From an uncultured Desulfuromonadales bacterium (lineage in GTDB: Bacteria; Desulfobacterota; Desulfuromonadia; Geobacterales; CAIOGM01), in the NCBI GenBank assembly GCA_903929485.1, contig CAIYUY010000040.1, positions 1-53,082 on the forward strand: DNA of 53,082 nucleotides, in the 5' to 3' direction. Positions 5,848 through 43,409 of the stretch are shown piece after piece. Numbering within the stretch: position 1 is the stretch's first letter; every line of letters begins with the position of its first letter. The position numbers and the translations under genes were made by a program. The notes beneath the pieces were generated by a model. The model was given only the letters and a program-made list of their open reading frames with translations, was not told the DNA's origin and made no database searches.

Positions 5848-5891
5848 TTGTCCCTTACGGGACAACATGTCTCTCACGGGACAACATGTCC
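5848..5891. promoter_or_regulatory. Tandem palindromic operator: two TGTCC-N6-GGACA sites plus a half-site
   Basis: Site 1 is a perfect palindrome, TTGTCCC-TTAC-GGGACAA (5848-5865). Site 2, TGTCT-N6-GGACA (5868-5883), differs at one base. A half-site TGTCC starts at 5887. The TGTC starts (5849, 5868, 5887) are exactly 19 bp apart. They lie 43-85 bp upstream of a -24 element, a range where activators can act. The regulator is unknown. Confidence 0.7.
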
Positions 5892-5933
5892 GAACTCCCC
5901 TTTGTAACTCATTGGAAAACCGTGCTGCTCTCC

Positions 5934-5949
5934 TTGGCACGTTTCTGGC
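5934..5949 (+). promoter_or_regulatory. Sigma-54-type (-24/-12) promoter upstream of mcp operon
   Basis: TTGGCACGTTTCTGGC matches the -24/-12 consensus TTGGCACG-N4-TTGC at every position except one (G for the second T of the -12 box). The invariant GG and GC have the required spacing. Palindromes flank it on both sides. Transcription would start near 5961, giving a leader of about 350 bases before mcp. Confidence 0.65.
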
Positions 5950-5986
5950 TATCCATCAAGAAAGTATCCCGCGGATGACGGCGAAG

Positions 5987-6002
5987 TGTCCCGTTTTGGA
6001 CA
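5987..6002. promoter_or_regulatory. TGTCC-N6-GGACA palindrome downstream of the promoter
   Basis: TGTCCCGTTTTGGACA has 5-bp perfect arms. Its centre lies about 45 bp downstream of the -12 element of the mcp promoter. The promoter of the gene starting at 36788 has an equivalent site at the same distance. Confidence 0.6.
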
Positions 6003-6312: not shown

Positions 6313-9300
6313 ATGAAAAAGATAACATTCGGCCAAAAACTCGTAGGCGGATTTCTTATTGTCGGTTTTTTAACCGCCATTGTGGGTGGAGTAGGAATCC
6401 TTAACATCAAGACAATCGAGAAGGCCGACACCAAACTCTATGAAAAATTCACCGTTCCCATCGGCCAACTGCAGGAGATGATTTCGTCATACCTGCTCAT
6501 CCGTCTCTCCCTGCAGGAACTGCTGGACGAACCGGACGCCGCGAAAAAAAAGGAGCAGGTGGCGAAAATCCGCGAGCTCCTGGATACCATGGATCAGGAT
6601 ACCGTGGAGTTTCCCAAGACCATTCTCACCAAGGAAGGACGTGAACATTTCAAGGAATTCACCGATTCCTGGAAAGTGAACAAGGGGGTACTGGAAAAGG
6701 CTATCACGTTAGGGGAAGAGGGGAACGGCAAGGAGTTATCGGTTCTCCTGAAGGGGGAAATCGCTCAAAAGGGGAGCATCGCCCTGGACGCGCTGGTGGA
6801 ACAGGTAAGCTCCAAGATCAAGCAGGCCAAACGGAGTTCCGGCGAAAACATCGTCCTCTCCAACAGCTCCACGGTGATCATGTCCCTCTTTACCCTGGCG
6901 GCGATTATTCTGGGGCTCATGCTCGGCTGGATCATCACCCGGGGAGTCAAACGGCAATTGGGGGGTGAACCGGATGATGTGGCCGAACTGGCCGGCAAGG
7001 TCGCCCAGGGAGATCTCTCCACGGTCATCGACACAGCTGGGAAAGACCCCAGGAGCATCATCATCGCCATGAAAAAGATGTCCGACGCCATCAAAGCCCT
7101 GATGGCCGACGCCGGGGCTCTGACCCAGGCGGCAAAGGCGGGAAACTTGGCGACCCGAGCCGACGCCGGCAAACATCAGGGGGAGTTCCATGATCTGGTG
7201 GCCGGGTTTAACGAGACCCTGGACGCGGTTATCGGCCCCCTGAACGTGGCCGCCGAGTATGTGGATCGAATCTCCAAGGGAGATATTCCCCCCAGGATCA
7301 CCGACGCCTACCAAGGGGATTTCAACGCCATAAAGCTCAATCTCAACAGCTGCATAAGCAACGTCACCCTCCTGGTCACCGACACGGCGCTCCTGGCTCA
7401 GGCGGCGCGCTCAGGCCGACTCTCCGTCCGGGCGGAGGCGTCCCGTCATCAGGGAGAGTTCCGCCACATCGTCACCGGCATCAACGACACTCTGGATACG
7501 GTCATCGGCCCCCTGAATGTGGCCGCCGACGCCCTGTACAATTTCGGAGAAGGGATCGCCCCCGCCGAGATCACCGAGGAGTACCTGGGGGACTATGGCC
7601 GAATCAAGCACGGCCTCAAGGCGGTTCTTGCCGCGGTAACCATGCGGGGCGAAGACCTGGAGCTCCTCCTTGGCGCCGCCCTGCAGGGAAATCTCACCCT
7701 GCGCGCCGATGCCACCAAGTACAACGGCTATAACAGCAGGATGATAAACGCCGTCAACCAGATCCTGGATCGGCTTACCGATCCGCTGCAGGTCGTCTCC
7801 GTCTGCATGAACCGGATCGCCCAGGGGGATATCCCGGCAAAGATCACCGAAACCTACAGCGGCGACTTCAACGAGATCAAGAACAACGTCAATATCTGCA
7901 TCGACGCCGTCAATCTCCTGGTGGCCGACTCCCACATGTTGGTCCAGGCCACCATGGCGGGGAAACTGGCCACCCGGGCCGATGCTACCCGGCATCATGG
8001 AGACTTCAAAAAGATCGTGGGTGGTTTCAACGACACCCTGGATGCGGTCATAGGCCCCCTGAATATGGCTGCGGAATATGTGAACCGGATCGCCAAGGGA
8101 GATATCCCGGCAAAGATCACCGACAGCTACTATGGCGACTTCAACGAGATCAAACTTAATCTCAACTACTGCATAAGCAACATCACCCTCCTCATCGACG
8201 ACGCCCACCAATTGGCCTTGGGCGCCGTGGAAGGGAAGTTGGCCTCCAGAACCGACGCTTCCCGCCATCAGGGAGATTTCAAGAAGATCGTCATCGGCTT
8301 CAACGATACCCTGGATGCGGTCATCGGCCCCCTGAACATGGCGGCTCAGTATGTGGACCGGATCGCCCAGGGGGAGATCCCGCCACGGATCACCGACAAC
8401 TACAACGGCGACTTCAACGAGGTTAAAAATAATCTCAACGGCTGCATCGATATCATGAACAACCTCCTGGGTGAGGCAGGTCGAGTCGTCCGGGCCGCGG
8501 CGGAGGGGAACCTGGATCAGCGGGCCGACAAAAATCTCTTTATCGGCAGCTGGCGGCAACTGGTGGAGGGGATAAACACCATCGTCACCAACATCGTCAC
8601 CCCCTTGAGGCTCACCGCATCCTACGTGGACCAGGTGGCCAGGGGAGAAATCCCCCCGCTCATGGACGGCGTATATCATGGCGAGTACGACAGCACCAAG
8701 AACAATATCAACGCCCTGCTGGGAACCATGCACGCTCTCCACCGGGAAATCGACGTTGTCATCACCGCCGCCGCGGTTGGTGACCTGAACCTGCGAGCCG
8801 ACGCCGACCGTTTCGTGGGGGAGTGGCGCACCCTGGTTGTGGGGGTCAACGACACCATCTCCAACATCGTCGGTCCGCTCATGAGCACCGCCGGCTATCT
8901 GCAACGGATCGCCCAGGGGGATCTCCCCCCCCTCATCGTCGACAACTCCCAGGGACAGTACAACCTCATCAAAAATAACCTGAACGGACTCCTCAAAACT
9001 TCCCACAATCTGTTATCCGAAACTGATATGATTATCAAGGCTGCCGCGGGGGGGGATCTCAACCATCGCGCCGATGCCACGCTGTTCGTGGGGGCGTGGC
9101 GCACCCTGGTGGCGGGGATCAACGACACCATGACCGGCATCGTCACGCCGCTTGCCCTCAGCACCGATTATATCAAGCGAATTTCCCTGGGGGATATGCC
9201 GCCGGTGATCACCGACCGGTACCATCTCCAGTTCGACATCGTCCGAAGCCTCAACGAACTCATCTCCGCCCTGAACCAGATCACCGCCGGTGCAGGGGAG

Positions 9301-10167
9301 ATCGCCTCGGGTAACCTGATGGTCAACCTGCGGGAGCGGTCAAGCAAGGATGAACTGATGAAGGCGCTGGTCACCATGGTGAGCCAGCTTACCAAGGTGG
9401 TCAAGGATGTGAAGAGCGCGGCTGACAACGTGGCTGCCGGCTCCCGTGAGATGAGTTCCGGGGCCGATGACCTCTCCAATGGCGCCAACGAGCAGGCGGC
9501 GGCAGCCGAGGAAGCATCTTCCAGCGTGGAACAGATGACCGCCAATATCCGGCAGAACGCCGACAACGCCCGGGAAACCGAAAAGATCGCCTTGATGGCG
9601 GCGGACGACGCCAGGGACGGCGGGTCGGCGGTAACTGAAACCGTGGCGGCCATGCGGGAGATTGCCGGGAAGATCACCATCATCGAGGAGATTGCCAGGC
9701 AGACCAACATGCTTGCCCTGAACGCCGCCATTGAGGCGGCCCGGGCCGGGGAGCACGGCAAAGGGTTCGCCGTGGTCGCCTCGGAGGTGCGCAAGCTGGC
9801 GGAACGAAGTCAGCAGGCGGCCCAGGAGATCTCCGAACTCTCCACCTCCAGCGTGGAGGTGGCGGAACGAGCCGGGTCAATGCTGTCCAGGATCGTCCCG
9901 GAAATCCAAAGAACCGCGGAACTGGTGCAGGAGATCAACGCCGCCTGCCGGGAACAGGACAGCGGCGCCGTGCAGATCAACAAGGCGATCCAGCAGCTGG
10001 ATCAGATTACCCAGCAGAACGCCTCGGCGGCGGAGGAGATGGCCTCCACCTCCGAACAGCTCTCTGCTCAGGCGGAGCAGCTCCAGAGCAGTGTAACCTT
10101 CTTCAAGACCGACGACTCGGGATCAAGGAGTTCGGAGAAAAGGAGGCCTGCCATGTATCTGCGCTGA
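6313..10167 (+). CDS. Methyl-accepting chemotaxis protein with an 18-unit poly-HAMP array
   Basis: A 1284-residue chemoreceptor. TM1 is at about residues 10-32, a four-helix-bundle sensor domain at about 35-185 and TM2 at about 187-211. A canonical HAMP follows (about 212-265). Then come 16 HAMP-like units of about 45 residues, in eight alternating A/B pairs (about 267-990), and a last HAMP (about 991-1035). The MCP signalling hairpin has its tip near residues 1125-1165 ([20 protein letters not shown]). It should pass ligand signals to CheA/CheW. The sensor module is nearly the same as that of the histidine kinase at 12142-14031. A PstS-like protein and a porin follow closely on the same strand. 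A GGGAG precedes the ATG. No cheA/cheW lies in the window. Confidence 0.95.
7111..9285 (+). repeat. Internal repeat: eight A/B pairs of HAMP-like units
   Basis: About 2175 bp code for 16 units averaging 45 residues. A-units read like [26 protein letters not shown]-units read like [32 protein letters not shown]. Pairs 4 and 5 are almost identical; the B half of pair 2 and the A half of pair 3 are most diverged. The B-units of pairs 1, 3, 4 and 5 share one cysteine near their end (LNSCIS, VNICID, LNYCIS, LNGCID). Confidence 0.85.
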
Positions 10168-10216
10168 ACCTGATGTCTGCTTCGCGAAAACGTACATTAC
10201 ACCAAAGGGGTATCAT

Positions 10217-10663
10217 ATGACTATTATCCGGGTACTACGCAACTGCTTCACGGGAACCCTTATGACAGGCTCGCTCATGATGGGGTTTTCCGCACCGGCG
10301 GCGGCAGCCGACTTTGTGATTGTGGCGAACAAGGGTGTCTCGGCCGGCTCTCTCAGCAAGGGGGAACTTCAGTCGATTTTCCTGGGAGAAAAAACGAAAT
10401 GGGATGACGGCAAGCCGATCAAGATCGTCACCCTGGATGAAGGAGCGGCCCACAAGGCCTTTCTGCAAACCGTCGTGGGGAAAACACCCTCCCAATTTGA
10501 CAGTTACTGGAAGAAACTGATTTTCACCGGCAAAGCCGCGGCCCCCAAGGCCTTTGACGAGGCGGGGAAACTGGTTGATTTCGTGGCGAGCCAAGCCGGC
10601 GCCATCGGCTACGTGGCTGCCGGACAGGCCGTCGGTTCGGTCAAAACAATTTCCATCAAGTAG
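10217..10663 (+). CDS. Small PstS-like periplasmic substrate-binding protein
   Basis: A 148-residue secreted protein. The signal peptide (residues 1 to about 31) ends at APAAAADF. The mature part begins FVIVANKGV and contains LSKGELQSIFLGEKTKWDDG and GAIGYV, which mark the small phosphate-binding-protein-like family; full PstS is about 300 residues, so this is a single-lobe version. Ligand binding is inferred and may not be phosphate. It lies 49 bp after the chemoreceptor gene and 11 bp before the porin gene with good ribosome sites, so the three probably form an operon. It could present a ligand to the chemoreceptor or be a cargo partner of the porin. Confidence 0.8.
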   Translation: MTIIRVLRNCFTGTLMTGSLMMGFSAPAAAADFVIVANKGVSAGSLSKGELQSIFLGEKTKWDDGKPIKIVTLDEGAAHKAFLQTVVGKTPSQFDSYWKKLIFTGKAAAPKAFDEAGKLVDFVASQAGAIGYVAAGQAVGSVKTISIK

Positions 10664-10674
10664 GAGGATAATAC

Positions 10675-11937
10675 ATGAAGAATATTTTAGCAGCGATAAC
10701 ACTCTGCGCAGTGGGACTTACGGCTTTTTCCACAACAGCCGGGGCAGTGGACCTGGGCGGGGTTGACATTCACGGATTCATCTCCCAGGGGTTCATCAAG
10801 ACCCCGGGCCAGAACAACTTCCCCGTGAGCAACAGCGGCAAGGGGTCGTTCAACTTCAACGACTTCGGCATCAATTTCACCAAGGAGATCTCCCCGGATC
10901 TGCATCTGGGGCTGCAGTTGTCCGCCTTCGACCGGGGTAACTACGGCCGGGACAAGATCACCATCGACTGGGCCTACGGCGACTATCGTTTCAAGGATTG
11001 GCTCGGGTTCCGGGCAGGGAAGGTGAAGATACCCCTGGGGCTCTACAACGAGGCCAGGGATAATGACGCACTGAGGACCTTCATCTTCCTCCCCCAGCAG
11101 GCGTATTTCGATTATGAGCGGGATTCCCTGGTGGCCATCCTGGGTGGCGGGATCTACGGCTCCATCCCCATGGGGAATGCGGGGACACTGAACTATCAGG
11201 TAGAAGTCGGCGCCGTCCCCGCGGTCTCCGACGGCGGCTTCGCCAAGGAAATTGGTGGGATGCTGGGTGGTTCGTCCGACACCCTGAACATCACCGACAT
11301 CAATTCCACCACCTCCATCGCCCACAGCCTGGAATGGCGGACCCCCGTTTCCGGTCTCCGCGCCCTGGCCACCGGTCTTCATACATCGCTCAGTGGAACA
11401 GCAAACGTGCTGGACCATGCAGTACCAAATGCCGATGGAGTAAATACCGACCATTTCACCGGGACCGCAACCTGGAAGTACGACAATCTCCACCGCTACA
11501 TCTTCTCCCTGGAATACACGCTGAACGATCTGATCCTCTCCGGCGAGTATGAACTTGACGACTACACGCTGAGCACCAGCTCCACCTATTCCAACGGGAC
11601 TACAGGCGCATTAAATTCAAAGCAAGCCACCGACTCCTGGGTCATCATGGCCACCTACCGCTTCAATGACTGGTTCGAAATGGGGAGTTTTTACCATGAA
11701 GTCTACGCTGATCGACACCACCGTGACGGTTCCACTCACAACGACTTTTGGCTTGCTCAGCCCTACAACATGTGGTGGAAGGACACGGCCTTGACACTCC
11801 GCTTCGACCCGGTCCCCAACGTGGTGTTCAAGGTCGAGGGGCATTACATCAACGGGAACTACGAAGTCATCGAAAACATCGGTGGCGCCAAAAAGGATTC
11901 GTACATCCTGGCCAGCAAGGTCAGCTACAGCTTCTGA
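10675..11937 (+). CDS. Outer-membrane porin-like beta-barrel protein
   Basis: A 420-residue protein with a signal peptide cut after about residue 24 (TAGA-VDL). The mature chain is rich in alternating aromatic/polar strands (for example WAYGDYRFKDWLGFRAGKVK) and ends in a C-terminal Phe (VSYSF), the usual beta-barrel assembly signal. No metal or heme motifs were seen. The family resembles OprP/OprO-like or uncharacterised deltaproteobacterial porins; the substrate is unknown. A strong AGGAGG precedes the ATG. It is the last gene of the mcp operon and converges on the histidine kinase at 12142-14031. Confidence 0.8.
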   Translation: MKNILAAITLCAVGLTAFSTTAGAVDLGGVDIHGFISQGFIKTPGQNNFPVSNSGKGSFNFNDFGINFTKEISPDLHLGLQLSAFDRGNYGRDKITIDWAYGDYRFKDWLGFRAGKVKIPLGLYNEARDNDALRTFIFLPQQAYFDYERDSLVAILGGGIYGSIPMGNAGTLNYQVEVGAVPAVSDGGFAKEIGGMLGGSSDTLNITDINSTTSIAHSLEWRTPVSGLRALATGLHTSLSGTANVLDHAVPNADGVNTDHFTGTATWKYDNLHRYIFSLEYTLNDLILSGEYELDDYTLSTSSTYSNGTTGALNSKQATDSWVIMATYRFNDWFEMGSFYHEVYADRHHRDGSTHNDFWLAQPYNMWWKDTALTLRFDPVPNVVFKVEGHYINGNYEVIENIGGAKKDSYILASKVSYSF

Positions 11938-35099: not shown

Positions 35100-36788
35100 T
35101 CAACCCACCGGGCCATGGCAGTAACAGGCTATCTTCTGCTCGGCTTTATCCCGATACATCCTCTTGTCACTGAGTTTCAAAGCTTCTCCAAGCATCCCGC
35201 CATGTTTCGCGAGACCGATCCCGAAAGCGATGCTCACCTGACCAGCGGTTATTTCCTGAGAAGCCATGATCCTCTTTACCACCTCCTCGGCAACGCTCTT
35301 GGGGGCTCCCGGAAGAAGGATTGCAAATTCATCCCCCCCGATGCGGGCGACGATATCCTCGGCGCGAAAAGCTCTCTTGATAATCCGCGACGCCAGCTGA
35401 ATCAGCTGATCACCGGCGCCGTGTCCCTGGGTGTCATTGATTTTTTTCAGACCATTCAGGTCCGCCATGACAATGCTGAGGGGAAACGTTCCACCCGTTG
35501 CAAGCCGTTCCAGCTCTTCATCAAAAAATGCCCGGTTGTAGAGACCGGTCAACCTGTCGTGAAAACCGACATGACGAAGCATCTCTTCGATTTTCTTCTG
35601 CTTGGTTATATCTTCCATGGAAAGGAGGATGATAGCGGGGCCGATATTCCCCTGGATGATTTGCCGGGCGTTCAGCAGAATGGTTCTGCTGCCGATGATG
35701 CGGAAATCATGCTCCACTTCATAGTCAGTGATCCTGGTATCATTGGTGAAGATCTCCTCCAGGAGGCATCGCAGGCGGGGAATGTCCCATTGCCGATTCC
35801 CCAAATCATAAACATATTTCCCGATCGTCTCCCGGGCGGTAGCCTTGAAGGTGTCGTAGAAGCTCTGGTTAGCGGTAAGAATCATCAGCTCCGGATCCAG
35901 CACCACCAGCGGTTCGCGCACGGTTTCCACGATATTCTCGGCATACCTGCGGGCATTCTGGACTTGCGCCGCCAACTCCTTCCGCTCGGTTATCTCGGTT
36001 TGAATAATGACGACCCCCTGCCTCGAACCTTTCAGCCTGGATACCCGTATGATAAACCACCGTTGTTCCAGGGAAAAGCCGCAGCCATACTCCATGGTAA
36101 AGGACTCTTTTTCACCCAGTAACACCGTCCGTATCCCTTGCTGCACCGCGGCGCACTCTTCACAATCTTTTTCACCATCGCTTCGCCGCGGATCCAGGTA
36201 CAGCTTTCCCGGATCACTTGTTGCGACGCAGGAGTCGCCGCTCTTCGCGGCTGACAGCTTCCTCCATGCCTCGTTCACCGCCACGACAATCCCTTTCGGA
36301 TTAAGGACGGCGATGCCGGACGTCAGTGAATCCATGACGTCCGTGGCGAAATATTCACTCTCCTCCAGATCGACGATCAGCTTTTCCGACATCCGCAACG
36401 CTTCCCGGCGGGTATTCAGCAGGACATGAATCAAAAAAAAGAGGAGGATGGTAACCGCCCCGCCGCCGAACATGGTGAGCCATACCCCCAGATAACCAGT
36501 GGTAAGGAGCCCGTCCGCCATGGTGGGGGTTTCGTAGAGCAGGGCTTGGGGCTTCTCCCCGTCTCCGTTATAACCCAAAGGCCACCGATTGAGAGCTGAA
36601 AGCGGTTCCGAACAGGTGGCGGGAGCATGCAGTTTTCGATCCACGCAGGATTTCATCTGAAAGGCGGCCGCGACGGTCAGCGGCAGTCCCACCGCCAGGA
36701 TCAGCAAGCTCTTCCCTATCCAAAACTGAGACGGCGCGGAGGGAGTTCCGCCGCTTTCGGCTTTTGGGGTAAACGGCATGGTTATCAT
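35100..36788 (-). CDS. Membrane diguanylate cyclase, PAS-PAS-GGDEF, lacking the CHASE domain
   Basis: 562 residues that make cyclic di-GMP. TM1 is at about residues 28-46 and TM2 at about 96-121, with only about 50 residues between them. PAS domains follow at about 145-270 and 283-400, then GGDEF at about 405-555. The active-site motif RIGGDEF is intact and the inhibitory I-site RAED sits five residues before it. The protein matches the paralogue at 39145-41511 nearly throughout, but about 230 periplasmic residues (the CHASE domain) are missing and a short unrelated piece (HAPATCSEPLSALN) fills the gap. A sigma-54-type promoter and flanking palindromes lie upstream. Confidence 0.93.
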   Translation of the reverse strand: MITMPFTPKAESGGTPSAPSQFWIGKSLLILAVGLPLTVAAAFQMKSCVDRKLHAPATCSEPLSALNRWPLGYNGDGEKPQALLYETPTMADGLLTTGYLGVWLTMFGGGAVTILLFFLIHVLLNTRREALRMSEKLIVDLEESEYFATDVMDSLTSGIAVLNPKGIVVAVNEAWRKLSAAKSGDSCVATSDPGKLYLDPRRSDGEKDCEECAAVQQGIRTVLLGEKESFTMEYGCGFSLEQRWFIIRVSRLKGSRQGVVIIQTEITERKELAAQVQNARRYAENIVETVREPLVVLDPELMILTANQSFYDTFKATARETIGKYVYDLGNRQWDIPRLRCLLEEIFTNDTRITDYEVEHDFRIIGSRTILLNARQIIQGNIGPAIILLSMEDITKQKKIEEMLRHVGFHDRLTGLYNRAFFDEELERLATGGTFPLSIVMADLNGLKKINDTQGHGAGDQLIQLASRIIKRAFRAEDIVARIGGDEFAILLPGAPKSVAEEVVKRIMASQEITAGQVSIAFGIGLAKHGGMLGEALKLSDKRMYRDKAEQKIACYCHGPVG

Positions 36789-36820: not shown

Positions 36821-36836
36821 TGTCCGTTAAGGGACA
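36821..36836. promoter_or_regulatory. TGTCC-N6-GGACA palindrome in the leader of the GGDEF gene
   Basis: TGTCCGTTAAGGGACA has perfect 5-bp arms. Its centre is about 45 bp downstream of the -12 element at 36873, the same distance as at the mcp promoter. Confidence 0.6.
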
Positions 36837-36872: not shown

Positions 36873-36888
36873 GCCAGAACCATGCCAA
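36873..36888 (-). promoter_or_regulatory. Sigma-54-type (-24/-12) promoter of the GGDEF gene starting at 36788
   Basis: On the minus strand the sequence is TTGGCATGGTTCTGGC. It has the invariant GG and GC at correct spacing and shares the unusual TTCTGGC end with the mcp promoter at 5934. The predicted start is near 36861, about 73 bases before the ATG. Confidence 0.6.
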
Positions 36889-36938
36889 AACATATTTTGT
36901 CATATTTCAGTAAGTTACATGCAGGCATGCAGCACAAG

Positions 36939-36956
36939 TTGTCCCCTGCGGGACAA
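36939..36956. promoter_or_regulatory. TTGTCCC-N4-GGGACAA palindrome upstream of the GGDEF promoter
   Basis: TTGTCCCCTGCGGGACAA is a perfect 7-4-7 palindrome, the same form as 5848-5865 in front of mcp. Its centre is about 60 bp upstream of the -24 element, a normal place for an activator site. Confidence 0.7.
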
Positions 36957-37019: not shown

Positions 37020-38342
37020 TCATCTCCGCCCGATTCCACTGACCGGGCCATGAAAATAACAGGTTACCTTCTGCTCGGCTTTATCCCGATACATCCTCCT
37101 GTCACTGAGTTTTAGAGCTTCCCCAAGCATCCCGCCATTTTCCGCGGAACCGACTCCGAAGGCAATGCTCACCTGACCATTGGTTATTTCCGAAGAGTTC
37201 ATGATCCTCTCCACCGCGTCCTCGGCAACGCTCTTCCGGGTTTCCGGCATAAGAATCGCAAATTCATCCCCCCCGATCCGGGCAACCACATCCCCGGCGC
37301 GAAACGCCCTGAGAATGATCCGCGCCGCCAGCCGGATCACCTGATCACCAGCCGCGTGTCCTTGGCAGTCATTTATCATTTTAAGCCCGTTCACATCAGC
37401 CATGACAATACCGATGGGAAACGTTCCCTCCCTGGAGAGCCGTTCCAGCTCTTCATCAAAAAACGTCCGGTTGTAGAGACCGGTCAGCTTGTCGTGAGAA
37501 CCCACATGACGAAGCATCTCTTCGTTTTTTTTCTGCTCGGTTATATCCTCCATGGCCAGAAGGATGATGTGCGATCCGATATCTTTCCGGTAAATCTGCC
37601 GAGCGTTGAGTCTGATAATCTTGCGCCCGATAACGGGAAAATCAGCCTCTACGTCATAGCCGCTGAATACGGAATCGTTGGGGAGAATCTCCTCGAACAG
37701 CAGCCGCAGGCGCGGAAGGTCCCACTGACGGCTTCCCAGGTCATAAATAAAATTTCCCAGAGTTTCCTTCGGCGTAACCATGAACATATCGTAAAAACTC
37801 TGGTTGGCGCTGAGAATTTTCAGTGCGGAATCCAGCACCACCAGCGGCTTACGCACGGTTTCCACGATATTCTCGGCATATTCCCGGGCGTCCCGAACTT
37901 CCCCCAGCAGACGCTCCAGATTCTCGTTTTGCTGGTTAAGCCGGCGTTGCAGAAAACTTATCTTCAAATGAGTTTGAACGCGTGCGTAGACCTCATCCAG
38001 CTGGAAGGGCTTGGTCACGTAGTCCACTCCCCCTACGCGGAACGCTTTAACCTTGTCCACTGTTTCATTCATCGCGCTGACAAAGATTACGGGGATCTCC
38101 TGGAGCAGCCCATCGGCTTTGAGCAGCCGGCAGAGTTCGTAGCCGTCCATTAACGGCATATCTATATCCAGCAGAATCAGGTCGGGCGGTGTCGCGCGTG
38201 CTGCCTGTAGCGCCAGTTTGCCGCTGAGAACGACTTGCGTTGCGTACCCTCGCGCAGCCAGCATTTTCTCCAGAAGCAGAACATTGGCGAGATTGTCGTC
38301 CACGATGAGAATATTTGGGGCTTTCTCCTCCGCGATCTTCAT
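37020..38342 (-). CDS. Response regulator diguanylate cyclase, REC-PAS-GGDEF
   Basis: 440 residues, soluble. A receiver domain (about 1-125; phosphoacceptor Asp59 in LILLDIDMP, Lys in YVTKPF) is followed by a short coiled coil, a PAS domain (about 155-275) and GGDEF (about 285-435) with intact RIGGDEF and I-site RAGD. The PAS-GGDEF part matches the cyclases at 35100 and 39145. Phosphorylation by an unlinked kinase would presumably raise c-di-GMP output. I chose the ATG at 38342 (MKIAEEK), with AGGGGG 7 bases upstream; the frame is open 21 codons further up. A sigma-54-type promoter lies 53 bp upstream. Confidence 0.92.
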   Translation of the reverse strand: MKIAEEKAPNILIVDDNLANVLLLEKMLAARGYATQVVLSGKLALQAARATPPDLILLDIDMPLMDGYELCRLLKADGLLQEIPVIFVSAMNETVDKVKAFRVGGVDYVTKPFQLDEVYARVQTHLKISFLQRRLNQQNENLERLLGEVRDAREYAENIVETVRKPLVVLDSALKILSANQSFYDMFMVTPKETLGNFIYDLGSRQWDLPRLRLLFEEILPNDSVFSGYDVEADFPVIGRKIIRLNARQIYRKDIGSHIILLAMEDITEQKKNEEMLRHVGSHDKLTGLYNRTFFDEELERLSREGTFPIGIVMADVNGLKMINDCQGHAAGDQVIRLAARIILRAFRAGDVVARIGGDEFAILMPETRKSVAEDAVERIMNSSEITNGQVSIAFGVGSAENGGMLGEALKLSDRRMYRDKAEQKVTCYFHGPVSGIGRR

Positions 38343-38394
38343 CATGAAACCCCCTGATAACAATTTCTTCCCTGACTCAACAAAAGAATCTTTT

Positions 38395-38410
38395 GCAACA
38401 AACATGCCTG
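38395..38410 (-). promoter_or_regulatory. Sigma-54-type promoter of the REC-PAS-GGDEF gene
   Basis: On the minus strand CAGGCATGTTTGTTGC matches GGCAYG-N4-TTGC with correct GG-GC spacing. It is very close to the promoter at 41580-41595. The predicted leader is about 40 bases. Confidence 0.55.
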
Positions 38411-39144: not shown

Positions 39145-41511
39145 TCAACCTGCCGAATCGTGGCAGTAACAGGCTATCTTCTGCTCGGCTTTATCCCGAT
39201 ACATCCTTCTGTCACTAAGGTTCAAGGCTTCCCCGAGCATCCCTCCATTTTCCGCGAAACCGATTCCAAAGGCGATGCTCACCTGACCAGCCGTTATTTC
39301 GGGAGAATTCATGATCCTCGCCACTACCTCCTCCGCAACACTCTTTTCTGCTCCCGGAAGAAGAATCGCAAATTCATCACCCCCGATGCGGGCGACGATG
39401 TCCTCGGAGCGAAACACTCTCTTGATGATCCGTGACGCCAGCTGAATCAGCTGATCACCGGCGCCATGCCCCTGACTGTCGTTGATTTTTTTAAGACCGT
39501 TCACATCGGCCATGACGATACTGACGGGAAACAATCCGCCCGTTGCGAGCCGTTCCATCTCTTCATCAAAAAACGCCCGGTTGTAAAGACCGGTCAACCT
39601 GTCGTGAGAACCGACGTAACGGAGCATCTCTTCAATTTTCTTCTGCTTGGTTATATCTTCCAGAGACAGAAGGATGATGTTGGGACCGATATTCCCCTGG
39701 ATGATTTGCCGGGCGTTCAGCAGAATAGTTCTGCTGCCGATGGCGCGAAACTCATGTTCCACTTCATAGTTGTTTATCACCGTATCATTGGTGAAAATAT
39801 TCTCCAGGAGGGATCGCAGGCGGGGAATGTCCCATTGCCGGTTGCCCAGATCATAAATAAATTTACCGACAGTCTCCTGGGAGGTCGCCTTGAAGGTGTC
39901 GTAGAAGCTCTGGTTGGCGGAAAGAATCATCAGCTCCAAATCCAGCACCACCAGCGGCTCGCGGACGGTTTCCACTATATTCTCCGCGTATTTCCGGGCA
40001 TTCTGGACTTGCGCCGCCAGCTCCTTCCGCTCGGTTATGTCGGTATGAATAATAACGACCCCCTTCCTTAAACCTTTCAGCCTGGATACCCGCATGATAA
40101 ACCACCGTCGTTCACCGGGAGAGACACAGCCGTACTCCATGGAAAAGGCATCCTTTTCACCCAATAAAACCGCCCTTATCCCTTGCTGCACCGCGGCGCA
40201 CTCTTCACAATCTTCCTCACCATCGCTTCGTCGCGCATCCAGGTACTGCTTGCCCATATCGCTCGTTACGACGCAGGAGTCGGCACTATTCTCCGCCGAC
40301 AAATTGCGCCACGTTTCATTCACCGCGATGATGACCCCCTTGGGATCAAGGACGACAATACCGGACGTCAGTGAATCCATGATATCCATGGCGAAATATT
40401 CACTCTCCTTCAGATCGGCGGTCAGCTTTTCCGACATCCGCATCGCTTGCCGGCGAGTGCTCAGAAGAGAGCGGATCAAGGCGAACAAAAGAATGGTAAC
40501 CGCACCGCCGCCAAGCATGGTGAGCCATACTCCCAGATAACCAGCGGTGAAGAGCCCTTCCCTGTTTTGGGTAAAGCGGAGAGTCCAGGGGCGACCAGCG
40601 ACTTGAATCTGTCGTGTAAATAGATATTTTTTCGGTTGTTTCCTCTCCGCGGCAGTGAGGGTTTCGTAGAGGAGAGTTTGGGGCGATTGCCGCAAACCGT
40701 CAAAGAGCTGAAGCTGAATCCTCTCTTTTCCCTCCCCGGCGCGACGGCCGAGTATTCCCTCCATCAGATCGTTCATCCGATGGGGGCTATAGACCCAGCC
40801 GAGAAGCGCGACGCGGCGCTGCGCCACCGTTTCAACCGGAAGAGCCCTGCTGTAGACCGGGAAATAGATCAGGGTGCCGGCCTGAACATCGACGCCGTTT
40901 TCTTGTATCAGAAGAACTTTGGCGGAGAGCGCCCCCCCCCCCGTATCCCGCGCCTGTTCCAAAGCGGCCCGGCGAACCGGTTCCGCAAGCATGTCGTAAC
41001 CGAAAGCCCGCAGGTTGCGGCCGGAAAAAGGTTCCAGATAGGTGACGGGAGCGTAAAACTTTCTATCACCGGCCGGTTTCACCGCATATTCAGGAAACCC
41101 TTCGCTCCGTACTCCCCGAAGATGCCGGGCAAGCCCCGCGCGGGTGATCAGCGGCGCGAATCCGAATCCCTGGATACCGGAGAGTTGTTGCTCCGGCTTC
41201 CGGTAGCGGGCAAAAACATGCCATTGCCGCCGCGTAACCTTTTCCGACGCGTCGAACAGCGCCGCGCCGCTCTGCAAAAGGATCACCTCGCTCTCAAACC
41301 GGTCGGCGATCTTTTCTTGAATCACGATACAGCGAGAGGTGAATTCCAGCTCGGCGATCCTGTCCAGACCGGATTTCATCCGCCATGTGGCCGCGACGGT
41401 GAGCAGCAGGCCCACCGCCAGGATTGACCGGCTCCTCCCTATCCAACAGGGAGACGGCGCGAGGGGAGTGTCGCCGCTTTCGGCTTTTGCCGTGAAGGGC
41501 ATAGTTATCAT
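39145..41511 (-). CDS. Membrane diguanylate cyclase, CHASE-PAS-PAS-GGDEF
   Basis: 788 residues. TM1 is at about 22-42, a periplasmic CHASE domain at about 50-300 (FYAPVTYLEP, FGYDMLAEP, TLIYFPVYSR), TM2 at about 320-345 and two PAS domains at about 370-625. GGDEF is at about 635-780 with intact RIGGDEF and I-site RSED. It should turn an extracellular small-molecule signal into c-di-GMP. The CHASE domain resembles that of the histidine kinase at 335-2677. I chose the ATG at 41511 (MITMPFTAK), with GGAGG 7 bases upstream; the paralogue at 35100 starts the same way. A sigma-54-type promoter lies 69 bp upstream. Confidence 0.94.
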   Translation of the reverse strand: MITMPFTAKAESGDTPLAPSPCWIGRSRSILAVGLLLTVAATWRMKSGLDRIAELEFTSRCIVIQEKIADRFESEVILLQSGAALFDASEKVTRRQWHVFARYRKPEQQLSGIQGFGFAPLITRAGLARHLRGVRSEGFPEYAVKPAGDRKFYAPVTYLEPFSGRNLRAFGYDMLAEPVRRAALEQARDTGGGALSAKVLLIQENGVDVQAGTLIYFPVYSRALPVETVAQRRVALLGWVYSPHRMNDLMEGILGRRAGEGKERIQLQLFDGLRQSPQTLLYETLTAAERKQPKKYLFTRQIQVAGRPWTLRFTQNREGLFTAGYLGVWLTMLGGGAVTILLFALIRSLLSTRRQAMRMSEKLTADLKESEYFAMDIMDSLTSGIVVLDPKGVIIAVNETWRNLSAENSADSCVVTSDMGKQYLDARRSDGEEDCEECAAVQQGIRAVLLGEKDAFSMEYGCVSPGERRWFIMRVSRLKGLRKGVVIIHTDITERKELAAQVQNARKYAENIVETVREPLVVLDLELMILSANQSFYDTFKATSQETVGKFIYDLGNRQWDIPRLRSLLENIFTNDTVINNYEVEHEFRAIGSRTILLNARQIIQGNIGPNIILLSLEDITKQKKIEEMLRYVGSHDRLTGLYNRAFFDEEMERLATGGLFPVSIVMADVNGLKKINDSQGHGAGDQLIQLASRIIKRVFRSEDIVARIGGDEFAILLPGAEKSVAEEVVARIMNSPEITAGQVSIAFGIGFAENGGMLGEALNLSDRRMYRDKAEQKIACYCHDSAG

Positions 41512-41533
41512 GAATATTCCTCCAGTCATGCAA

Positions 41534-41790: not shown

Positions 41791-43377
41791 TTAGTCGCGG
41801 CGAATACCGTATTTCCGCATCCGGGCCCGAAGAGTACTGGGGTTGAGACCGAGAAGGAGGGCCGCGCCGCCGGCGCCTTCAACTCGCCATCCGGTTTTCC
41901 TGAGCATTGCAAGAATGTGGCGCTGCTCCAGATCGGCCAGTTCCTTGGGCTCCTCAGCCACCGGTTCCGCCGTCTTGCGGTCGGGCTCCAACCGATCCAG
42001 GAGCTGCAGCAAGGCGCCGTTGCTGATGATGATCGCCCGCTCGATAACACTTTCCAGTTCACGCACGTTGCCCGGCCAGCGGCGCTCCTGAAGGAGAGCC
42101 AGTAACTCCCTGGGGATGGTGGCGACCTTTTTACCGATCTTCTTGTTGAATTTAGCGACGAAATGATTCACCAAGAGCGGAATATCTTCCTTGCGCTGCC
42201 TCAGCGGCGGGATCGTGATGGGAAAAACATTGAGCCGATAAAAGAGATCCTCCCGGAACCTGCCGTTTTTGATCTCTTCCTCCAGGTTCCGGTTGGTGGC
42301 CGCGATGATCCGAACCTTGACCTTGATGGTCCGCCCACCTCCCAACCGCTCGAACTCGCCATCCTGGATGACCCGGAGGAGCTTTGGTTGCAACTCCAAC
42401 GGCATCTCCCCTATCTCGTCCAGAAAAATAGTGCCGCCATCGGCCAGCTCGAACCGCCCGAGCTGTCGTTCATGGGCCCCGCTGAAAGCGCCTTTTTCAT
42501 GGCCGAAGAGTTCGCTTTCCACCAGATTCGCCGGCAGCGACGTGCAGTTGACCGTTATCATCGGCCGCTCCTTGCAGGCGCTGCGACTATGGATGGCGCG
42601 TGCAACCACCCCCTTGCCGGTGCCGGTCTCTCCCAGAAGGAGGACCGTCGCATTCTGGGCCGCCACCTGCTCGATCTTGAAAAAAACATAGGCCAACGCG
42701 GCGCTATTCCCGATGATCTCGCCGAAATTGTACTCCCGGGCGACCTCCTGATGCAGGTAGATGTTCTCGGCCTGGAGCCTCTCTTTCAGCCGGGAGATCT
42801 CTTCATAGGCCTCCTTCAGGGACAGTTCCGTTTTCTGGTGCTCGTATATTTTTCCAATAAGCTGCCGATTCGCGTCGATCAGCTTTTCGGTCCGCGCCTC
42901 TACGATTATCTCCAGGTCGTCATGAGCTTTTTGCAGCGCCTCAGCCAACTGCTTCCGTTGGGTGATGTCTTCCATGGCCAAAAGGATACTGTGCAGGCCG
43001 ACACGATCCCGGAAAATCTGCCGGGCGTTGAGGAGAATAATCTTTTTGCCGATGCCGGGGAAATCATGCTCCACCTCGTAACCGTTGAACAGGGTATCGT
43101 TGGGGAGAATATTCTCAAAGAGTATCCGCAACTTGGGAATATCCCACTGACGATTTCCCAGGGCGTGGATGAACTGACCGATGGTTTCCTCCGGCGTCAC
43201 CTTGAAGGTATCGTAGAAGCTATGGTTGGCGATGAGAACCTTCAGATCGGAATTAAGCACCAACAGCGGCTCGCGCACGGTCTCCACGATACTGGCGGCG
43301 TATTCCCGGGCATCCCGGATTTCCGCCGCCAACCGTTCCACGGCTATTTTCAGATTTTCAACTCCGCCGATTCCCAT
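41791..43377 (-). CDS. Sigma-54-dependent transcriptional activator, PAS-AAA-Fis
   Basis: 528 residues. A PAS domain (about 10-140) is the same type as in the three GGDEF proteins downstream ([29 protein letters not shown]). A coiled coil (about 145-210) leads to the AAA+ domain: Walker A GETGTGKG, Walker [11 protein letters not shown], and the sigma-54 contact loop, here GAFSGA in place of GAFTGA (about 296-301). A Fis-type helix-turn-helix closes the protein ([25 protein letters not shown]). No receiver domain is present, so control is probably through PAS. It lies upstream of three genes with -24/-12 promoters and is the natural candidate to drive them. Start: ATG at 43377 after GAGGGG. 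Confidence 0.94.
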
Positions 43378-43381
43378 TATC

Positions 43382-43409
43382 ACCCCTCGGATTTTTTTGA
43401 AAGAGGGGT
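43382..43409 (-). promoter_or_regulatory. Inverted repeat covering the activator's ribosome-binding site
   Basis: ACCCCTC and GAGGGGT are perfect 7-bp arms separated by 14 bases. On the minus strand the second arm is the Shine-Dalgarno sequence of the activator gene. In mRNA it could hide the ribosome site; in DNA it could be an autoregulatory operator just downstream of the -10 box. Confidence 0.45.

Follow-up and report, generated by a model that had tools for sequence, protein, structure and literature searches.

The promoters described here closely resemble those of the NtrC/NifA type, with which they share dimer sites upstream of the start (about -86 and -105), an IHF-like element before the -24/-12 elements and, as predicted, an AAA+ activator of the response-regulator kind with a GAFTGA motif. 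The consensus site of NifA is TGT-N10-ACA, and TTGC in the -12 element belongs to the sigma-54 consensus without being invariant, so that its absence does not disqualify a promoter. A second likeness is to FleQ at the pel and flagellar promoters of Pseudomonas, an activator of the same AAA+ class that has sites flanking the promoter and governs motility and biofilm genes; going by the title of a 2002 report by Jyot et al., FleQ is also said to be able to bind downstream of an RpoN site. A third is to NorR at norVW, where there are three dimer sites per promoter and NorR requires all three of these enhancer sites, which act as a scaffold for a higher-order oligomer of the protein (PMC2941729).

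The window analyzed here is the whole of one 53-kb contig (C40). An earlier note on this DNA had described two sigma-54-type promoters in it, one before a chemoreceptor gene (mcp) and one before a GGDEF gene, each bracketed by TGTCC-N6-GGACA palindromes. The features at the two promoters are as follows.

5849..5864, outer upstream palindrome of the mcp promoter, exact, centre at about -105: TGTCCCTTACGGGACA
5868..5883, inner upstream palindrome of the mcp promoter, one mismatch, centre at about -86: TGTCTCTCACGGGACA
5905..5917, - strand, IHF-like element between enhancer and promoter at mcp, IHF binding inferred: TTCCAATGAGTTA
5934..5949, + strand, predicted sigma-54 promoter of mcp with -24 GG and -12 GC, -12 box TGGC: TTGGCACGTTTCTGGC
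5987..6002, downstream palindrome of the mcp promoter, exact, centre at about +34: TGTCCCGTTTTGGACA
6313..10167, + strand, mcp target gene, a chemoreceptor of 1284 aa with 4HB_MCP, HAMP_2 repeats and MCPsignal
36940..36955, lone upstream palindrome of the GGDEF promoter, exact, centre at about -86: TGTCCCCTGCGGGACA
36905..36917, + strand, IHF-like element of the GGDEF promoter, in the same promoter-relative orientation as at mcp: TTTCAGTAAGTTA
36873..36888, - strand, predicted sigma-54 promoter of the GGDEF gene, -12 box TGGC: TTGGCATGGTTCTGGC
36821..36836, downstream palindrome of the GGDEF promoter, exact, centre at about +34: TGTCCGTTAAGGGACA
35100..36788, - strand, GGDEF target gene, a PAS-GGDEF diguanylate cyclase of 562 aa with the GGDEF motif intact

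The positions -105, -86 and +34 are reckoned from predicted start sites. The elements claimed by the earlier note at both promoters were present to within 1 bp, including the TGGC read as the -12 box at each, and by the coordinates the downstream palindrome is centred about 45 bp from the GC of the -12 at each promoter. Upstream, the mcp promoter has two palindromes at a spacing of 19 bp and the GGDEF promoter has one. The GGDEF promoter is a reduced version of the design, with the outer upstream palindrome missing and a single upstream site (about -86) retained together with the one at +34. Assignment of both as sigma-54 promoters rests on their GG-N10-GC elements, and RpoN-dependent transcription is inferred.

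The HAMP_2-repeat chemoreceptor gene is followed by genes for a 148-aa PBP_like_2 protein and for one of 420 aa without a Pfam family (6313-11937), and a congener (G002, L131:7022-12641) has the same triad promoter, gene order and sizes as this operon. The GGDEF gene is the first of three in a row (35100-36788, 37020-38405 and 39145-41529, all on the - strand) with shared regions 71-82% identical and the GGDEF motif intact in all three; only the first has a palindrome promoter, and none of the three other congeneric genomes has an ortholog of it above the cut-off.

Four exact copies of TGTCC-N6-GGACA were found in the window against 0.08 expected, and none of 100 shuffles reached four. Palindromes with two mismatches were within chance in number there, which confines the signal to near-perfect sites. 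Across the genome (5.36 Mb, 369 contigs) there were 26 exact copies compared to 6 for the reversed control, with 22 of the 26 sitting at promoters of one shared design. Lone exact sites on C94, C97, C101 and C272 lie within coding regions in about the number expected by chance and were set aside as chance occurrences, and single-mismatch sites across the genome were listed only in part. Scanning the genome with a relaxed pattern of two sites at the proper distance returned five promoters, all already known, with none in the control. The genome-wide scan suggested as a check in the earlier note found the palindrome mainly at sigma-54 promoters before signalling genes, in a regulon that exceeds the two promoters of the window.

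The design recurs at about eleven near-identical promoters in this genome (G000). Seven are complete triads (C14, C40-mcp, C211, C238, C242, C262 and C290) and those on C168, C169 and C319 are truncated by contig ends; C168 and C169 may each be half of a single promoter. The target genes are as follows.

C40 and C238, chemoreceptors
C14 and C211, MASE1-CHASE and CHASE histidine kinases
C262, a PAS kinase
C319, a kinase-receiver-LuxR hybrid
C40, the GGDEF gene (diguanylate cyclase)
C242, an Os1348-like small protein, then a lone receiver
C168, a YtkA-like protein with a periplasmic-binding protein
C290, target unclear; the -12 of this triad is degenerate (GT), and a Y1-type transposase gene separates the promoter from the next gene

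This list of targets indicates mainly a signalling regulon. The C290 promoter is possibly one that has been severed from its gene; the Y1 transposase gene that follows it (L027:8089-9516) encodes a DnaA-like C-terminal domain.

The geometry of the module comes from 52 copies (triads) collected from this and other genomes, with the 19-bp upstream pitch fixed by the search and the third palindrome not used as a search criterion. In order, the module has the pair of upstream palindromes (centred at about -105 and -86), then an IHF-like element, then a sigma-54 promoter whose -12 is non-canonical, and finally the downstream palindrome at about +34. A downstream palindrome with at most one mismatch was present in 50 of the 52 triads and was exact in 45. 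In 49 of the 50 copies that have it, it lies 119-123 bp from the inner upstream palindrome, and its distance from the promoter was 51-55 bp, with 53 bp in 30 of the 50. The inner site lies 66-69 bp from the promoter in every triad but one, and this sole outlier (78 bp) is displaced by about 10 bp, or one helical turn. Since many of the 52 triads are orthologs of one another, inheritance accounts for part of the constancy in spacing, and the seven complete paralogous triads of this genome are the more independent sample.

The promoter elements of the triads read GG at -24 in 50 of 50 and GC at -12 in 48 of 50, the search itself having demanded GG and either GC or GT. TCGC was the commonest -12 box (32/50), followed by TGGC in four and the canonical TTGC in one, which makes TGGC at the mcp and GGDEF promoters one form of a family-wide departure. 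A TAAC-N3-CTGAAA element is position-locked between the inner site and the promoter across the family and reads TTTCAG-N4-TTA on the opposite strand, differing at one position from the IHF consensus WATCARNNNNTTR given for Geobacter (PMC7962754). Scores for this consensus in the spacer were not clearly above those of shuffled spacers and only the fixed position stands out, so that the involvement of IHF is inferred from this position and from the fit.

In other genera the paired palindrome was observed directly 3' of an NtrC-type activator gene, which is itself 3' of a hybrid kinase gene. The activator of these relatives has one clear ortholog in this genome (C136:33104-34447; 76% identical), whose gene overlaps by four bases that of a PAS-HisKA-HATPase-receiver-Hpt hybrid kinase, with the kinase gene first; control of the activator by phosphorylation from this kinase is inferred. 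Its receiver, AAA+ (Sigma54_activat) and lid domains match Pfam, and it has GAFTGA and a C-terminal HTH that aligns to the orthologs. Pfam HTH_8 was not reported for it and was weak in its orthologs. No palindrome or triad was found near the C136 activator gene, and the link to the regulator in this genome thus rests on orthology.

Activator and palindrome were observed to occur together across genomes. Of 277 genomes in the class, 29 have the tandem palindrome (≤1 mismatch), 30 have the activator (E ≤1e-180, identity ≥68%) and 28 have both (Fisher p ~6e-35, relatedness uncorrected), and for the 141 genomes of the order the numbers were 26 for the tandem and 27 for the activator (≥68% identity) with 25 shared. 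In three genomes from other families (G181, G189 and G241) the site was detected first and the protein afterwards. The tandem follows the activator stop codon at a distance of 18-174 bp in 24 of the 28 shared genomes (25 copies).

The exceptions are informative. Two genomes have the activator without the tandem (G019 and G100), and in both a triad lies behind the gene in which all three palindromes are 17 bp long (N7) with a pitch of 20 bp (L244 and L245, respectively). The recognition helix of these two activators ends in SRKQFY and SRKRFY compared to SRKLFY elsewhere, or SRKIFY/SRKMFY in two, and the residue preceding the helix is also altered; site spacing and recognition helix thus covary, possibly as a natural specificity switch. 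One genome has a triad without the activator (G098), and there a 26-28 residue remnant of the activator HTH was found 24 bp before the triad. All three exceptions to the co-occurrence are explained in this way and, as far as sequence can indicate, strengthen the case for the protein and the site.

We estimate a probability of roughly 0.8 that the palindrome promoters form a regulon under one NtrC-type two-component activator (G000:C136:33104-34447), a predicted relationship for which there are no binding, footprint or expression data; this figure covers the regulon and the regulator and excludes the role of the +34 site. That the activator would bind TGTCC-N6-GGACA is inferred from co-occurrence, adjacency and HTH covariation. 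The proposal of the earlier note that one regulator joins chemoreceptor and cyclase expression is supported by the genome-wide scan and by a regulator that tracks the palindrome across the 277 genomes in presence, position and DNA-binding helix.

A different regulator was also considered. The window encodes a PAS-type sigma-54 activator (PAS-AAA+-HTH; 41791-43383, - strand) in which GAFSGA replaces GAFTGA, and the palindrome could be a NifA site, recognized by NifA or by another activator such as this one. TGTCC-N6-GGACA does satisfy the NifA consensus, TGT/ACA half-sites are common among such activators in Desulfovibrio (PMC4641369) and an activator gene is at hand in the window. However, the site tracks a different protein in the 277 genomes and covaries with the HTH of that protein, and its targets are signalling genes rather than nitrogen fixation genes, which makes this explanation very unlikely. 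The window activator was itself rejected as the regulator on its unrelated HTH, its GAFSGA and an identity of only 46% over the AAA+ domain.

The same covariation bears on the suggestion that only the upstream palindromes are protein sites and that the downstream one is a hairpin in the 5' leader of the RNA. The downstream site does fall in the predicted leader and a 5-bp stem is possible, but the N7 genomes change all three sites, the downstream one included, along with the HTH, and in the downstream site complementarity is not maintained between positions 6 and 11. We regard a leader hairpin as scarcely credible.

Orphan tails of the activator HTH also precede extra triads in G071 and G181; the tails before such extra triads (L226, L230 and L239) are of 26-60 residues. 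These tails suggest that the cassette is spread by duplications in which the 3' end of the activator gene is copied as well; no tail was found on any triad of this genome. Such duplicated cassettes (G071, G098 and G181) are what could be expected if the palindromes were merely dispersed repeats without a regulatory role, an idea to which we give almost no credence, as 22 of the 26 exact sites are at sigma-54 promoters of fixed layout, the flanking sequence has otherwise diverged and the sites covary with a protein.

Outside this genome the first gene past the triad often encodes a protein of 68-86 aa. Three such small proteins tested, one of them from C242 of this genome, score 54-58 bits with the Os1348 family NHLP clan model, above its cut-off of 40. 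Os1348 itself, from Pseudomonas sp. Os17, is a small antibiotic-related protein (PMC7726476). Small first targets of this clan were noted at L125:9741-9962, L219:7050-7274 and L024 (~8552), and elsewhere the Os1348-like gene is followed by genes for secreted proteins, such as a DUF3089 lipoprotein or a metallophosphoesterase-like protein with a TAT signal. Flagellin-like genes lie near a triad in G020 and G189 (L124:7801-9504 and L242:7206-9008), and in that of G020 the N and C domains of flagellin are separated by RCC1 repeats.

Based on these observations, we propose that phosphorylated dimers of the activator would bind TGTCC-N6-GGACA at about -105 and -86, that IHF would bend the DNA between enhancer and promoter and that the AAA+ ring would open the closed sigma-54 complex at a promoter with an off-consensus -12 box. 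Activation from the upstream sites is likely, although inferred. What the sequences themselves show is the module with its geometry, its association with a single activator and the covariation of palindrome and helix; phosphorylation, IHF binding, activation and any role for the +34 site are deduced. A third dimer may bind at about +34, just beyond the expected RNA polymerase footprint and at a near-fixed distance from the promoter, and we see about an even chance that this site supplies the third dimer of the AAA+ hexamer, with the loop closed around the promoter. The need of NorR for three sites provides a precedent for a third dimer at the AAA+ ring. The two sites of the GGDEF promoter mean, if that promoter is functional, that three are not obligatory. 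The full proposal is a split enhancer in which two upstream dimers and one at +34 make up the hexamer with polymerase held in the IHF-bent loop, on a cassette that spread by duplication, taking the 3' part of the activator gene with it, and that was recruited to a signalling regulon in this genus. We put it forward tentatively, at somewhat less than even odds.

The main alternative retains the same regulator and makes the +34 palindrome a repressor or feedback operator, or a roadblock. In the repressor variant, unphosphorylated or excess activator at +34 would block open-complex formation or promoter escape, and output would peak at intermediate activator levels. In 50 of the 52 triads this site is found at the border of the transcribed region, its centre is more AT-rich than those of the upstream sites (GC 0.43 compared to 0.54-0.61), so affinities may differ, and FleQ at pel binds an upstream box and a start-site box and represses by looping (PMC10723142). 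A roadblock would, however, tolerate many distances, yet the spacing is 51-55 bp with 53 dominant, and the downstream site is conserved as well as the upstream ones (45/50 exact). The near-fixed distance from promoter to +34 site favors a stereospecific role over a simple roadblock, and we consider this alternative a serious possibility that we nonetheless doubt. The hypothetical looping, or combined activation and repression, raised in the earlier note would fit the rigid geometry.

Here a regulator, its operator and its regulon could be named from sequence alone, and the covariation of protein and DNA is directly testable. The fixed +34 operator offers a natural system for asking if a downstream site supplies the third dimer of a sigma-54 activator. 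One kinase-regulator pair would, in this genus, set the expression of many sensors, chemoreceptors and one c-di-GMP enzyme, forming a layer above the signalling network itself. The motif was not found by a full-text literature search of partial coverage, outside which lie the 'Class 1-4' paired elements of a G. metallireducens supplement, and it is not described in the main text of the Geobacter papers found; the two-component system is apparently undescribed in this class.

Set against the known systems, FleQ differs most clearly in its box (GTCAAT-N2-ATTGAC), which is unlike the TGTCC-N6-GGACA palindrome. The pel promoter is a sigma-70 promoter, no rigid triad has been described for FleQ, and FleQ works with FleN and c-di-GMP, for neither of which there was evidence here (FleN was not among the searches). 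NorR has a GAF domain in place of a receiver, and its sites are all upstream. Compared to NtrC/NifA-type promoters, the present module adds an identical third palindrome at a fixed place downstream and has a -12 that is almost never TTGC. This is in other respects an ordinary sigma-54 activator system, and its unusual features are the strictly kept downstream operator and the signalling regulon.
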